Positions 10,984 through 48,988 of a DNA stretch of 64,000 bases are shown in pieces (within the stretch, counting starts at the first letter, position 1; every line of letters begins with the position of its first letter). The notes below the pieces were generated by a model, which searched no databases, was not told the DNA's origin, and worked only from the letters and a program-made list of their open reading frames with translations. The translations under genes were made by a program, and so were the position numbers. Origin of the DNA: Paludisphaera borealis (GTDB lineage Bacteria; Planctomycetota; Planctomycetia; Isosphaerales; Isosphaeraceae); assembly GCF_001956985.1 (NCBI RefSeq), contig NZ_CP019082.1, forward strand, positions 5,394,001-5,458,000. Reading direction: 5' to 3'.

Positions 10984-13197
<2,214 letters not shown>

Positions 13198-13247
13198 GTG
13201 CGGCGATTCTCCTTCGAGTGAGGCGTGGGGGATGTCTTCAGGTCCCT

Positions 13248-13335
13248 CCGAATACAAGCCCGAAGCGCCAGCGAGTGCATTTCCGGTCGGCCGCTGGAAT
13301 CCATGCACTCGCTGGCGCTTCGGGCTTGTATTCGG
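13248..13335. repeat. 88-bp intergenic palindrome, family A copy 1
   Basis: Perfect 33-bp inverted arms (13248-13280 and 13303-13335) surround a 22-nt loop (13281-13302). The arm core is AAGCCCGAAGCGCCAGCGAG. It sits between the 5' end of the OPT gene and the 3' end of the adenylate-kinase-like gene. A second copy at 14071-14160 and a decayed one at 45421-45496 share the core. Confidence 0.9.
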
Positions 13336-13372
13336 ATCTCGGCATTGCCTTGCGCTGCGTAACCTGACCCGC

Positions 13373-14014
13373 TCAGGCGATCCCGGCGTTTCGGAGTTCG
13401 GAGAGCCGGTTGACGATGTCGCGGAGGACGTGGATCATGGCCTGGCCGGCCTCGATCTTGTAGACCAGCTCGGGAGGATAGAAGCTGAGGGTCTGGAAGG
13501 TCTCTTCGTGGTACGTGTTCAGCCGCCGTTTGATGACCTCGTCGCTCATGTCGTCGAGGCGGTTCTCGCGCAAGGCCCGGGCCCGCAGCCGCTTCATGGC
13601 GAGCTTGACGTCGTCGATGTTCAGATGGAAAATCTGGACGACGTCGAGGCTGGCGTCGAGCTGCTCGGCCTGGGCGCGGTTGCGGGGCAGTCCGTCGAGA
13701 ATCAGGGTCTGCTGGTCGGGGAGGAAGAACTCCTGGAGTTCGAGGATCTTGATGTGCCGCTCGAAGATCCGGACCGTGAGGTCGTCGGGGACCATCTTGC
13801 CGACCGACGTATAGCTCTCGATCTCCGCGCCTAACTTGCCGAGTTTGGGGATTTTCCGGAACACGTCGCCCATCGAGATGTGGACGAGGTCCGGGAGTTG
13901 GCCGAGCACCGTGCCTTGCGTCCCCTTGCCGCTGCCGGGCATGCCGAACAGGAGGATCGTGCGACACTTGCCCTGGTAGTCGACGAAGTCGAAGCTGTTC
14001 CGGGTGGGGGTCAT
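13373..14014 (-). CDS. Adenylate kinase family nucleoside monophosphate kinase, short LID
   Basis: A 213-residue cytosolic P-loop kinase. After a ~17-residue N-terminal extension comes LLFGMPGSGKGTQ (P-loop), then the NMP-binding region with HISMGDVFR and a helix-rich segment, and LDGLPRNRAQAEQLD, which is the adenylate kinase signature with Arg for substrate phosphate. After the FHLNID strand the LID is only a short helix pair (RALRENRLDDMSDEVIKRRL) without the four-Cys or long beta LID of typical bacterial Adk. Overall length is normal because of the N-terminal extension and a longer C-terminal helix. It likely transfers phosphate between ATP and AMP or another NMP; specificity is not certain. 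AGGT 8 bases before the ATG supports the start. Palindromes of the same family lie on both sides of the gene. Confidence 0.85.
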   Translation of the reverse strand: MTPTRNSFDFVDYQGKCRTILLFGMPGSGKGTQGTVLGQLPDLVHISMGDVFRKIPKLGKLGAEIESYTSVGKMVPDDLTVRIFERHIKILELQEFFLPDQQTLILDGLPRNRAQAEQLDASLDVVQIFHLNIDDVKLAMKRLRARALRENRLDDMSDEVIKRRLNTYHEETFQTLSFYPPELVYKIEAGQAMIHVLRDIVNRLSELRNAGIA

Positions 14015-14070
14015 ATGGCTTTACCTGTCGCGGTTTGCATTTGAGTCGCGCACTCTGCGAATCCGAATTC

Positions 14071-14160
14071 CCCGAATACAAGCCCGAAGCGCCAGCGAGT
14101 GAATTTCCGATCGGCCGTTGGAATCAATTCACTCGCTGGCGCTTCGGGCTTGTATTCGGG
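14071..14160. repeat. 90-bp intergenic palindrome, family A copy 2
   Basis: Perfect 35-bp inverted arms (14071-14105 and 14126-14160) with a 20-nt loop (14106-14125). Arms and loop closely match copy 1 at 13248-13335; where the arms differ (the GTGCAT end against GTGAATT), both arms of each copy differ together, so pairing stays perfect. It lies between the 5' end of the kinase gene and the start of the histidine phosphatase gene. Confidence 0.9.
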
Positions 14161-14256
14161 GGCCGCCGATCGCGAGCCTGTTTTCATGAAGTCGGGCGGA
14201 CCGGCGATCGGTCGCCGCCCCTATTCTTTCTCTTTCGTCACGCCCGGAGCAAGACG

Positions 14257-14886
14257 TTGCAGGAAACTCGCCTTCTTCTGATCCGACACGCCGAGACCTC
14301 GACCCCCAACGTCTTCCACGGCGCAGAATCCGACATCGGTTTGAGCCCCTGGGGAGAGCGTCAAGCGGCCTTGCTGGGTGATCGCCTCGCGAACGTCCGG
14401 GCCGACGCCCTGTATTGCTCGGGGATGCGCCGGGCGATCGCCACCGCGGGGCCCGTCGGCGCGGCCTGCGGCTTGACGCCCGAGGTGGTCGTCGATCTCC
14501 ATGAGCGGCGGATCGGCGCCCTCAGCGGCCAGACCCGCGAAGCCGGGTGGGACGTCTACGGCGAATCGAAGCGGCGGTGGATCGCCGGGGATCTCGAATT
14601 CAGCCATCCCGGCGGCGAGTCGTTCGCGGCGATCGCCCGGCGGGTCCTGCCGATCCTTGAGGAGTTTCGCCGCCGCCACGAGGGGCGGACGACTATCGTG
14701 GTCGCTCACGGGATCGTGATCCGCGTGGCGCTTCTGAGCCTTCTACCGGATTACGTCCCCGCCGACTTCGACCGGATCGCCATCGACTTCGCCTCGATCA
14801 ACGACCTCGCCTGGGACGGATCGAAATGGAACGCCCTGGCTCTCAACGAAGTCGTCGCCCCGTCGCCGGCCCGGCCGGTGGCTTGA
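14257..14886 (+). CDS. Histidine phosphatase family protein (phosphoglycerate-mutase-like)
   Basis: A 209-residue cytosolic phosphatase of the branch-1 histidine phosphatase superfamily. LLLIRHAETSTPNVFHG is the RHG-type motif with the nucleophilic His; YCSGMRRAIATA supplies the second Arg pocket; the acid/base Glu is in LHERRIGALSG; the second His is in VVAHGIVIR. Substrate cannot be told from sequence; family members include phosphoglycerate mutases, cobalamin and sugar phosphatases. I chose TTG at 14257 (MQETRLLLIRHAE) because CGGAG lies 9 bases upstream and the protein then starts like its relatives. An ATG at 14035 would make the first 40 residues out of the palindromic repeat, which I regard as non-coding. 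A hairpin terminator follows the stop. Confidence 0.85.
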   Translation: MQETRLLLIRHAETSTPNVFHGAESDIGLSPWGERQAALLGDRLANVRADALYCSGMRRAIATAGPVGAACGLTPEVVVDLHERRIGALSGQTREAGWDVYGESKRRWIAGDLEFSHPGGESFAAIARRVLPILEEFRRRHEGRTTIVVAHGIVIRVALLSLLPDYVPADFDRIAIDFASINDLAWDGSKWNALALNEVVAPSPARPVA

Positions 14887-27831: not shown

Positions 27832-28195
27832 CCTGCGACGGCACGGTCGAGGAAAGAAGAAAGGGGCATGAGGCTTATACGCCTACGGTTCACGGTGCCG
27901 CGAATACTTCTTGCGCTCGTAGCAGAAACAGGGGCACTCCTGGAGCGGTTCACCTTTGAGTTGCGCACAGCCGGGGCATCCGGAAGACCGCATTACTGTA
28001 GGGGCGTCCCTCGTGGGCGCCCGAATTGCGGGGATCGCCGGAGTCGCCGACGCCGATCGGGCGCCCACAAGGGACGCCCCTACGTGTTCAACCCAAACGG
28101 AAACCGCTCTAAATCATGGGGAAGTTTTGGGGGGGAGCCGGTGTCGACGAGTCGGCTACCGAATCGAGGTGCGCGAGAACGGTGAAGTCCTGTTA
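27832..28195. other. Intergenic region with palindrome, left flank of IS element
   Basis: This 364-bp stretch holds the palindrome at 27998-28083. A leftward frame over 27883-27990 reads CPGCAQL then CPCFCYERKKYSRHREP, a zinc-ribbon-like Cys pattern that may be a gene remnant; it lacks its own start outside the palindrome. The target-site copy TTA (28193-28195) of the IS element closes the region. Confidence 0.4.
27998..28083. repeat. 86-bp intergenic palindrome, separate family
   Basis: 27-bp arms (27998-28024 and 28057-28083) pair with one mismatch; arm core GGGGCGTCCCTCGTGGGCGC. The loop is 32 nt. It has the same size and layout as the family A palindromes but unrelated sequence, and lies 113 bp left of the IS element. 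Confidence 0.85.
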
Positions 28196-45420: not shown

Positions 45421-45496
45421 CGGAATCCAAGCCCGAAGCGCAAGCGAGTGAATTCCCTCGAATCACTCGCTTGTGCGTTTCGGGCCTTGAATCCGG
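45421..45496. repeat. Decayed intergenic palindrome, family A copy 3
   Basis: The left part contains AAGCCCGAAGCGCAAGCGAG, one base different from the family A core, and the right part its inverse with single-base insertions (CACTCGCTTG then TTTCGGGCC). The loop is shorter than in copies 1 and 2. It lies between the convergent pump and oligopeptidase genes. Confidence 0.8.
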
Positions 45497-47607: not shown

Positions 47608-47947
47608 CCGGGTCGTCCCCTCCGCCTGGAAATCCGCGGCCGACTCGGGCCGCGCCACGATACCTTGGATCATCCCCGCTGGCCGAGAGCCGTGTCAACG
47701 CGGCTCTCCCCCGATCGCCGGGCTCGGGCGCGGCCGACGATCGAGGGTCGTCGGTCACAGGACCATTGAGCCTTTCGCGAGCTTCGGGTAAGAGTGGAGT
47801 GACGATCGGGTGCGAAACGGCGGCGGCTCGCCCGCGACCATGCGGAGCCCCGCCGGGCCCGCGCGCTCTTCTCGACTCGTTGCAACGCCTACCCGCAAGT
47901 GGGGCCGCGACAGCCCGCGGCCGACAGACAGTGGAGTTTCTAGACGC
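47608..47947. other. Intergenic region between divergent genes, no gene seen
   Basis: This 340-bp stretch holds the promoters of the leftward membrane-protein/pepF genes and the rightward xylose-isomerase-like gene. Long frames crossing it are continuations of shadow frames. No hairpin or repeat stood out. Confidence 0.4.
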
Positions 47948-48988
47948 ATGAGTTCGCCCACGACCTACCGTTTCTCGTTCGGCCCCTGGAACATCAGCAC
48001 CGGTGCCGACCCGTTCGGACCGACCGTGCGCAACGAGATGGAATACGCGCGCAAACTGAAAGCCTATAAAGAGCTCGGCTTCGACGCGGTGCAGTTCCAC
48101 GACGACGACATCGTCCCCGCCGACCTGGATTGGCAGGCCACCCTCCGCGGCACCGCCGAAGTCAAGAAGATCCTCGACGGCGAAGGGCTGTTCGTCGAGA
48201 TCATCGCCCCCCGGCTCTGGGAAGACCCCCGCACGGTCGACGGCGCGTTCACCTCGAACAACCCGGCCGACCGCAAGTACGCCATCGATCGGGCCAAGCG
48301 GTGCGCCGACCTCGCCCGCGAAGTCGGCTGCAAGAACTACGTCCTCTGGCTGGCCCGCGAAGGCACCTACATCCGCGAGGCCAAGTGCGCCAAGACGGCG
48401 CACGCCCGGATCGTCGACGCCTGGAACGCGCTTCTGGAGCACGACAAGGAAATCCGCATCATGGGCGAAGCCAAGCCCAACGAGCCGGTCGACCACGCCT
48501 ACCTGCCGACCGTCGGCCACATGATGGCGATCGGCTACAAGACCATCGATCCCAGCCGCTCGGGCGTCCTGATCGAGACCGCCCACTCGCTGCTGGCGGG
48601 CCTCGACCCGGCCGACGACATGGCCTTCGCCCTCTTTCACGACAAGCTCTGGAGCGTCCACCTCAACGACCAGAACGGCCTCAAGTACGACCAGGACAAG
48701 GTCTTCGGCTCGGTCGACCTGCGCCGGGCGTTCAACCAGGTCTGGGTCCTGGAAAAGGCCGGATACGGCAAGAACGGCGAATGCGTCGGCCTCGACGTCA
48801 AGGCCATGCGGACGACCACGTTCGAGGATTCGACCCTCCATCTCGCCAACTCCCGGACCATGTTCCTCCGCCTTCTCGACATCGTCCGCTCGGTCGATGA
48901 GAAGCAGGTCGAGGAGCTTCGCGCCGCCCGCAAGTACGAGCAGCTCGAAATGCTGATTCTGAATACCTTGATGGGTAAGAAGAACTGA
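47948..48988 (+). CDS. xylA: Xylose isomerase-family sugar isomerase
   Basis: A 346-residue TIM-barrel enzyme of the short, Streptomyces-type xylose isomerase class. Seen: catalytic His in AVQFHDDDIVPAD, metal-ligand Glu in MGEAKPNEP with conserved Lys, second metal site with LIETAHSLLAG, and Asp/His ligands in VHLNDQNGLKYDQD. In actinobacterial XylA the His after ExG is HEQM; here it is ETAHSLLAG, so the motif is conserved in pattern. It interconverts aldose and ketose, xylose to xylulose being typical; a different sugar is possible since no pentose kinase is nearby. ATG 47948 has GGAG about 11 bases upstream. It converges on the sulfatase gene. Confidence 0.85.
   Translation: MSSPTTYRFSFGPWNISTGADPFGPTVRNEMEYARKLKAYKELGFDAVQFHDDDIVPADLDWQATLRGTAEVKKILDGEGLFVEIIAPRLWEDPRTVDGAFTSNNPADRKYAIDRAKRCADLAREVGCKNYVLWLAREGTYIREAKCAKTAHARIVDAWNALLEHDKEIRIMGEAKPNEPVDHAYLPTVGHMMAIGYKTIDPSRSGVLIETAHSLLAGLDPADDMAFALFHDKLWSVHLNDQNGLKYDQDKVFGSVDLRRAFNQVWVLEKAGYGKNGECVGLDVKAMRTTTFEDSTLHLANSRTMFLRLLDIVRSVDEKQVEELRAARKYEQLEMLILNTLMGKKN

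Follow-up and report, generated by a model that had tools for sequence, protein, structure and literature searches.

The two perfect palindromes that stand on either side of an adenylate kinase gene in the window, the 64,000-nucleotide stretch of Paludisphaera borealis DNA analysed here, are probably both copies of a non-autonomous, REPIN-like element, in which two REPs of about 25 nt, each a recognition site of a Y1/HUH transposase, lie face to face. With both REP arms intact, such an element is a perfect 33-36-bp palindrome. We infer that the repeat family was mobile and probably owes its spread to a single-strand transposase that matches it. The palindromes thus mark past insertions beside a gene and delimit no special gene cassette. 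The REPIN-like identity was assigned because the arms form inverted pairs, lie at intergenic sites and cluster around REP-associated transposase (RAYT) genes, and because the type of repeat follows the transposase tree. The palindromes of the window are thus REPIN-like dimers of class-3-type REPs.

Palindromes of the window

The initial annotation had placed perfect palindromes near 13248-13335 and 14071-14160. An inverted-repeat search of the window showed that they are real, with 100% complementarity in both and arms of 34 nt (dimer 1) and 36 nt (dimer 2), each arm being one base longer than annotated.

13247..13336, strand., dimer 1: convergent REP-like arms 13247-13280 and 13303-13336, loop of 22 nt
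14070..14161, strand., dimer 2: convergent REP-like arms 14070-14105 and 14126-14161, loop of 20 nt
45429..45488, strand., third, decayed dimer: arm 45429-45448 with 1 mismatch, partner 45464-45488 degenerate and longer

Folded as single-stranded DNA, dimer 1 reaches -51.3 kcal/mol and dimer 2 -47.3 kcal/mol (z of -13.6 and -14.2 relative to shuffles, with 0 of 200 shuffles equalling either). Dimer 1 belongs to the TGC/TGC subtype, the same as that around RAYT1 elsewhere in the genome, and dimer 2 to the TGA/TGA subtype. The 20-mer core of the arms was matched five times in the window at no more than 3 mismatches (0.03 expected), and extra bases are present in one arm of the third dimer. At gathering scores, no Rfam match was obtained within the window. 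A different 27-nt inverted repeat, starting with GTAGGGGCG, is located at 27998-28083.

The two copies had also been described as nearly identical, with their differences paired across the arms. The near-identity holds, as the 88-bp copies differ at 5 positions. Positions 31 and 58 form one compensated pair, in which C-G is exchanged for A-T, and the differences at 39, 47 and 55 lie within the loop. A compensated loop change at 39/47 was considered and rejected, since these columns are without covariation over 37 same-length copies (G,T in 16, A,T in 7, A,G in 6, G,C in 3 and other combinations in 5). The outermost bases, at position -9, match within each window copy (T-A vs C-G); at this position there was no genome-wide excess of arm agreement (24/103 vs 32.9 expected). 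The compensatory changes thus come down to one interior pair, and the other matches look like chance.

Neighbouring genes

The gene between the two dimers was assigned as follows.

13373..14014, strand -, adenylate kinase (Pfam ADK): lies between the two dimers and is a bystander, with neighbours conserved in congeners

An OPT transporter gene lies on one side of it and a histidine phosphatase gene (His_Phos) on the other. The palindromes had been proposed to bracket the adenylate kinase gene as a cassette, and there is indeed exactly one gene between them. However, the cassette reading fails because OPT, ADK and His_Phos have the same order and orientation in 5/5 congeners, all of them without the core. 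The palindromes arrived at a pre-existing gene order. As the repeat family is also present at many other loci, we give a mobile adenylate kinase cassette delimited by the palindromes practically no chance.

The gap between ADK and His_Phos is 242 nt here vs 112-168 nt in the congeners, which is compatible with the insertion of an element of about 92 nt. Between OPT and ADK, the gap of 175 nt includes the dimer and compares with 137-177 nt in the congeners, so that no simple insertion is visible there against these five genomes. A clean insertion or target site could not be recovered, the intergenic sequence of the congeners being too diverged. Mechanically called ORFs at 10984-13308, 13196-13834 and 14035-14886 cross the palindromes and thereby obtain false N-termini. 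The start of the OPT ORF falls inside dimer 1, and the arms translate as a YKPEAPAS-like peptide; the true OPT start more likely lies near 13197.

Repeat family in the genome

The genome holding the window comprises 7,651,896 bases in three contigs, with a chromosome of 7,497,544 bases; the genome statistics in PMC5352709 list for P. borealis PX4T a genome of 7.652 Mb, a chromosome of 7.498 Mb and plasmids of 111,833 and 42,519 bases. The genome-wide core search proposed in the initial annotation gave 166 exact copies of the 20-mer (90 forward, 76 reverse; none for a reversed-pattern control), so the repeat is not confined to the window, and a relaxed core was matched 361 times. The exact core is absent from 5/5 congeners, and among 58 relatives it was found in two others, with 1 and 5 copies. 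The arm sample consisted of 161 of the 166 exact arms and of 256 arms at no more than 4 mismatches. Convergent inverted dimers hold 132 of the 161 exact arms, and arm spacing peaks at 50-53 and 66-68 nt, matching two loop classes. These numbers, and the presence of a class-3-like RAYT gene within each of two arm clusters, support the RAYT/MITE-like process that had been named as one possible origin.

Two sets of dimers were compiled. The anchored set contains 105 dimers around exact cores and is biased against symmetric changes because its loci were picked by an exact core in one arm. Therefore, every dimer in a contiguous 1.26 Mb (3,300,001-4,560,000) was taken instead; 56 of these 59 unselected dimers were kept, the three dropped pairs being chance matches with 5-6 mismatches in both arms. 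In the same 1.26 Mb, the 12-mer GTAGGGGCGCCC, noted in connection with the different inverted repeat at 27998-28083, was matched 44 times at no more than 1 mismatch vs 22 times for the reversed control.

When genes were called by a codon-usage script, 46 of the 56 contiguous-set dimers were located wholly outside called genes, 4 partly inside and 6 mostly inside, as compared with 12.8% of random 100-mers outside. Mapping the copies relative to genes and transposase, another check put forward at the outset, thus placed most of them between genes and two RAYT genes inside arm clusters. The 50 dimers not mostly inside genes were found between convergent (18), codirectional (20) and divergent genes (12), and the corresponding shares for random non-coding 100-mers were 18%, 53% and 29%, which amounts to an excess between convergent genes (p 0.0025).

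A flank motif, CGGCCTCATGAAAATG, was scored at no more than 4 mismatches as tail 1 in the 125 dimers of the pooled anchored and contiguous sets. It was present on exactly one side in 38 of these and on both sides in none, where simple arithmetic gives about 3 if the sides were independent. A second flank motif, tail 2, was found in 20/125. Altogether, tail 1 stood opposite tail 2 in 10 dimers, 28 had tail 1 only, 10 had tail 2 only and 77 had neither. Of the two window dimers, only the second is accompanied by tail 1, which lies to its right.

14162..14200 (limits approximate), strand -, tail 1 of dimer 2: CGGCCTCATGAAAATG at 14179-14194 with 4 mismatches

With about a third of the dimers carrying one-sided tails, the moving unit may be longer than the dimer, perhaps about 200 nt, and asymmetric.

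Transposase genes

Five Y1_Tnp genes were found in the genome, and two Y1/HUH genes lie inside clusters of arms.

Genome 47,854-48,354, RAYT1: Y1/HUH gene among nine arms within 1.2 kb
Genome 5,892,266-5,892,745, RAYT2: Y1/HUH gene among nine arms

Around RAYT1, seven forward arms on the left and two reverse arms on the right are of the type [A/C]AGCCC..TGC, with one CGC, and the AAGCTC..TGA variant is present in 9/9 arms around RAYT2. The two proteins are 75% identical, and both reading frames are open. The NHVH, W[TA] and Y----Q motifs of class 3 TnpA-Y1 are present in both, as TNHVHVVV, FWTEGAS and YVIVAQ (RAYT1) or YVIEAQ (RAYT2). Compared with the consensus YV[VI][AENY]EQ, the fifth letter is A in both and the fourth fits in RAYT2 only. 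In 74 aligned sequences, including these two, His99 and Tyr156 are invariant, and His97 and Gln161 are conserved in at least 90%. The scores for Pfam Y1_Tnp (PF01797), 23.6 and 23.2 bits, are above the gathering cut-off of 23, and those for NCBIfam REP_Tyr_transpos, 24.2 and 21.1 bits, are far under the curated cut-off of 80 bits.

An AF2 model of the RAYT (pLDDT 87.4) had its top PDB hit in 4er8, the structure of a RAYT in complex with a REP hairpin (E 2.6e-5, TM 0.55, rmsd 6.8), followed by IS200, ISDra2 and IS608 transposases; no match was obtained when the RAYT profile was searched against PDB sequences. A tnpB-like Pfam match is absent from the three long ORFs beside RAYT1 and the one beside RAYT2. 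An inverted GTAG pair was seen near another Y1_Tnp gene (L038:2766-2838).

Arm covariation within the genome

Covariation had been read in the initial annotation as a sign that the hairpin is selected or that some process rewrites both arms, with pair-breaking changes across the genome as the test. Among the non-consensus cells at positions 1-25 of the 56 unselected dimers, pairing was broken 94 times and kept 28 times, so within the genome this reading does not hold; arms do co-change between lineages. Rare alleles (below 5%) occurred in both arms in 2 cases, in one arm in 40, and facing another variant in 5. The variants found in two arms were concentrated at four sites (both arms/one arm): A>G at site 1 (6/5), C>T at site 5 (7/5), C>A at site 14 (3/4) and A>C at site 23 (10/8). 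Three other common alleles were never seen in both arms: A>C at site 1 (10 one-arm cases), A>G at site 23 (6) and A>G at site 24 (8). Over 25 positions, arms differed on average by 1.68 within a dimer vs 2.39 for random arms, and without sites 1, 5, 14, 21 and 23, which were chosen after the tables were seen, by 0.82 in both. Only 14/56 dimers were free of mismatches over 25 nt.

In the anchored set, arms agreed within dimers at site 23, which separates TGA from TGC, in 78/103 (45.6 expected) and at site 5 in 94/103 (82.5 expected). Agreement at site 23 was likewise found in 16/20 neighbouring direct repeats, which are unable to pair and include tandem duplicates, compared with 79/105 for dimer arms and 11/28 for adjacent arms of different dimers. 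Because non-pairing direct neighbours agree as often and the other sites match random arms, arm agreement marks the subfamily, and the symmetry of resident copies is not maintained.

Fold of the single arm

For covariation inside one arm, 67 distinct arms from 71 planctomycete loci were aligned and analyzed by a column-pair shuffle test that ignores the relatedness of the arms. Columns 5-21 were Watson-Crick in 51/67 (42 C-G, 9 A-T) vs 36.2 expected from shuffles, and columns 6-20 in 56/67 (50 C-G, 4 G-C, 2 T-A) vs 46.4 expected (p 0.0005 for each). There is little signal in the two adjacent registers, where 8-20 scores best (p 0.009). On the RAYT tree, the joint state changed 16 times for 5-21 and 9 times for 6-20. 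From these sequences, the arm appears to outline a weak hairpin with a stem at 4-6/20-22 (CCC/GGG), a GAA/GA internal loop, GC/GC and a GCNA tetraloop. A few lineages have instead a perfect hairpin in a neighbouring register (-9.3 and -11.1 kcal/mol). In the P. borealis arm, 5-21 is a C.T mismatch, and a single such arm folds at only about -1 (-1.3) kcal/mol.

CnGA was present at -8 to -5 in 36/112 P. borealis arms (1.75 expected) and within 12 nt upstream of the arm in 8/56 other loci. We do not claim a CnGA foot because the motif is enriched in P. borealis and not in other lineages. In the same 112 arms with flanks (-14 to 29), GTAG was found 0 times and CGTC once.

Repeats and RAYTs across Planctomycetota

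Altogether 392 genomes of the phylum were surveyed, with E<=1e-12 as the threshold for a RAYT match. A relaxed core was found in 19/392 and a RAYT in 52/392, P. borealis being included in both. Among the other genomes with the repeat, 16/18 have a RAYT, compared with 35/373 of those without it (Fisher 9e-14), as tallied by hand from two tables; the 16 are not independent because 9 of them belong to one family. One genome of the phylum (G120) outnumbers the cores of the window's genome, with 531 relaxed-core matches and four RAYT matches.

Out of 372 named RAYT loci the 80 best were examined: a core-like arm was located within 600 bp of the RAYT in 56, and a reversed core in 2. A strong inverted pair was near the RAYT gene in 35/54 comparable loci vs 2/54 further off. 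Other RAYT clades have a different palindrome, AGCGG..CCGGT. Mapped on the RAYT tree, repeat type changes 7 times, compared with a shuffled mean of 21.4 and a minimum of 17 in 200 shuffles, and arm distance tracks RAYT distance (Mantel r 0.42, 0/2000 permutations, n=51). The dimers that flank the RAYT genes at seven loci (L214-L216, L279, L299, L317 and L318) consist of a second palindrome, AGCGGcACGGCGCtAGCCGCCGGT.

A search of 89 loci gave 54 distinct convergent pairs, which still include 7 with 10-12 arm mismatches that are probably chance pairs. At positions 1-20, the same variant was present in both arms in 119 cells, a variant in one arm in 97 and different variants in 20; the mean mismatch over 25 positions was 3.7 within a dimer vs 7.9 for random arms. 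Between lineages, the arms of a dimer do evolve in step, which is what a need for both to fit one RAYT would lead one to expect.

Proposed mechanism and alternative explanations

By analogy with TnpA-REP and IS608 TnpA, the RAYT would bind each REP in single-stranded DNA and would cut and join at or near the dimer ends, and new copies would land between genes. The symmetry of the arms would be fixed at the time an element forms, since one and the same RAYT has to recognise its two ends, and thereafter the arms would mutate independently. For the dimers, neither an excision or insertion event nor an empty site was observed. On a wider scale, class-3-type RAYTs and palindromic dimers could form a co-diversifying pair throughout the phylum, with an asymmetric moving unit of about 200 nt (tail 1-REP-loop-REP-tail 2), arm symmetry imposed solely when a copy arises, and matched RAYT/REP pairs, two in one genome and dozens in the phylum, from whose sequences the code of transposase-hairpin recognition could be read; we put this forward tentatively and consider it rather doubtful.

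Hairpin-templated repair or gene conversion, by which one arm is rewritten from the other so that resident arms stay identical, would account for the two perfect palindromes of the window, for the agreement at sites 23 and 5, for the variants shared by two arms at sites 23, 5, 1 and 14, and for the smaller difference within unselected dimers than between random arms. However, rare alleles are mostly confined to one arm, the difference from random arms disappears when the five post hoc sites are removed, direct neighbours agree at site 23 as dimer arms do, and three-quarters of the dimers contain mismatches. Rewriting is thus largely refuted and very improbable. Equally improbable is that the long hairpin is maintained by selection for a signalling role in RNA or DNA, such as a terminator, an mRNA stabiliser or a cruciform. 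The very stable fold and the enrichment between convergent genes would suit such a role, but pair-breaking changes outnumber pair-keeping ones, a T run is missing after both window hairpins, dimer 2 sits between divergently transcribed genes, and the core is missing in the five congeners with the same gene order. Single dimer copies may still have acquired effects.

In the third alternative, the gene of class-3 type and the arms around it would together make up an autonomous insertion sequence like IS200/IS605, and the dimers would be MITEs of that element; there would be no domesticated RAYT and no REPINs. This is unlikely but deserves more credit than the other two. As it shares a trans-acting transposase with the REPIN-like reading, the probabilities of the two overlap and need not sum to one. 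In its favour, arms and tail 1 are present on both outer sides of RAYT1, two paralogues have different repeat variants, RAYTs are patchily distributed (no congener has one), and class 3 is discussed in sections of PMC6006769 as a possible intermediate between IS and REPtron. On the other hand, the genome has just two clearly diverged gene copies vs 361 arms, and the type of repeat goes with the gene tree, which is the pattern of RAYT-REP pairs that have long stayed together. The REPIN-like reading has points against it as well: dimer arms are no better conserved than unpaired ones (exact arms in 47/111 dimer vs 12/29 lone arms, p = 1.0, in a small sample), the lone P. borealis arm barely folds, the RAYTs score far under the NCBIfam cut-off, their profile matches no PDB sequence, and the co-distribution counts related genomes.

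Relation to known elements

According to the parts of PMC6006769 that deal with class 3 TnpA-Y1, these proteins occur mainly in Planctomycetes, Acidobacteria and Proteobacteria. The P. borealis RAYTs resemble them in the HUH motif NHVH, the WT motif, the Y----Q spacing and the host phylum, and the repeats resemble the class 3 REPtron-like ones described there in that several weak structures flank the gene, the GT[AG]G tag is lacking and copy number is high in some genomes. They differ in a Y motif that agrees only in part with the consensus and in a CnGA foot that is not confidently placed in P. borealis arms. The inverted dimers, the tails and the match between repeat type and RAYT tree were worked out here.

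With REPINs, as portrayed in portions of PMC3116915, the family shares inverted REP doublets with short loops, extragenic location, a specific RAYT nearby, tandem clusters and several groups per genome; in contrast, P. borealis doublets are no more conserved than singlets, tails of about 60 nt are one-sided, and the RAYT is of class 3 type. The GTAG/CGTC-tagged REP superfamilies, in the sections of PMC3733652 that describe them, are likewise short palindromic extragenic repeats, often with two opposed units close by, but these tags are practically absent from P. borealis arms. The lack of extra conservation of arms in dimers and of a GTAG/CGTC tag argues against full REPIN membership. With IS200/IS605 elements and their MITEs the family shares the transposase fold and, as noted in parts of PMC6006769, recognition of subterminal hairpins; it differs in having two diverged genes beside hundreds of short dimers and no tnpB-like Pfam match in the four long ORFs beside the RAYTs.

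Among the papers listed in a literature search, with supplements and most subscription papers outside it, no account of this P. borealis repeat family was found, and queries with an 18-mer of the core and for Rhodopirellula baltica REPs gave no match; under the terms looked up, the P. borealis genome paper (PMC5352709) mentions only CRISPR repeats. The element is of a known kind, and the analysis adds useful detail on its planctomycete class-3 branch, for which experiments are called for in a passage of PMC6006769 that raises possible IS-REPtron intermediates. Two diverged RAYT-repeat pairs in one genome, with a repeat fold backed by covariation, are concrete test substrates, to which dozens of matched pairs in other planctomycetes can be added. 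What looks like compensatory change between palindrome arms can be a product of shared subfamily ancestry, with no selection for pairing behind it. Whole dimers were also seen in tandem arrays with 99-nt and 94-nt steps, beside RAYT2 and near 5,671,600 (L040, L094).
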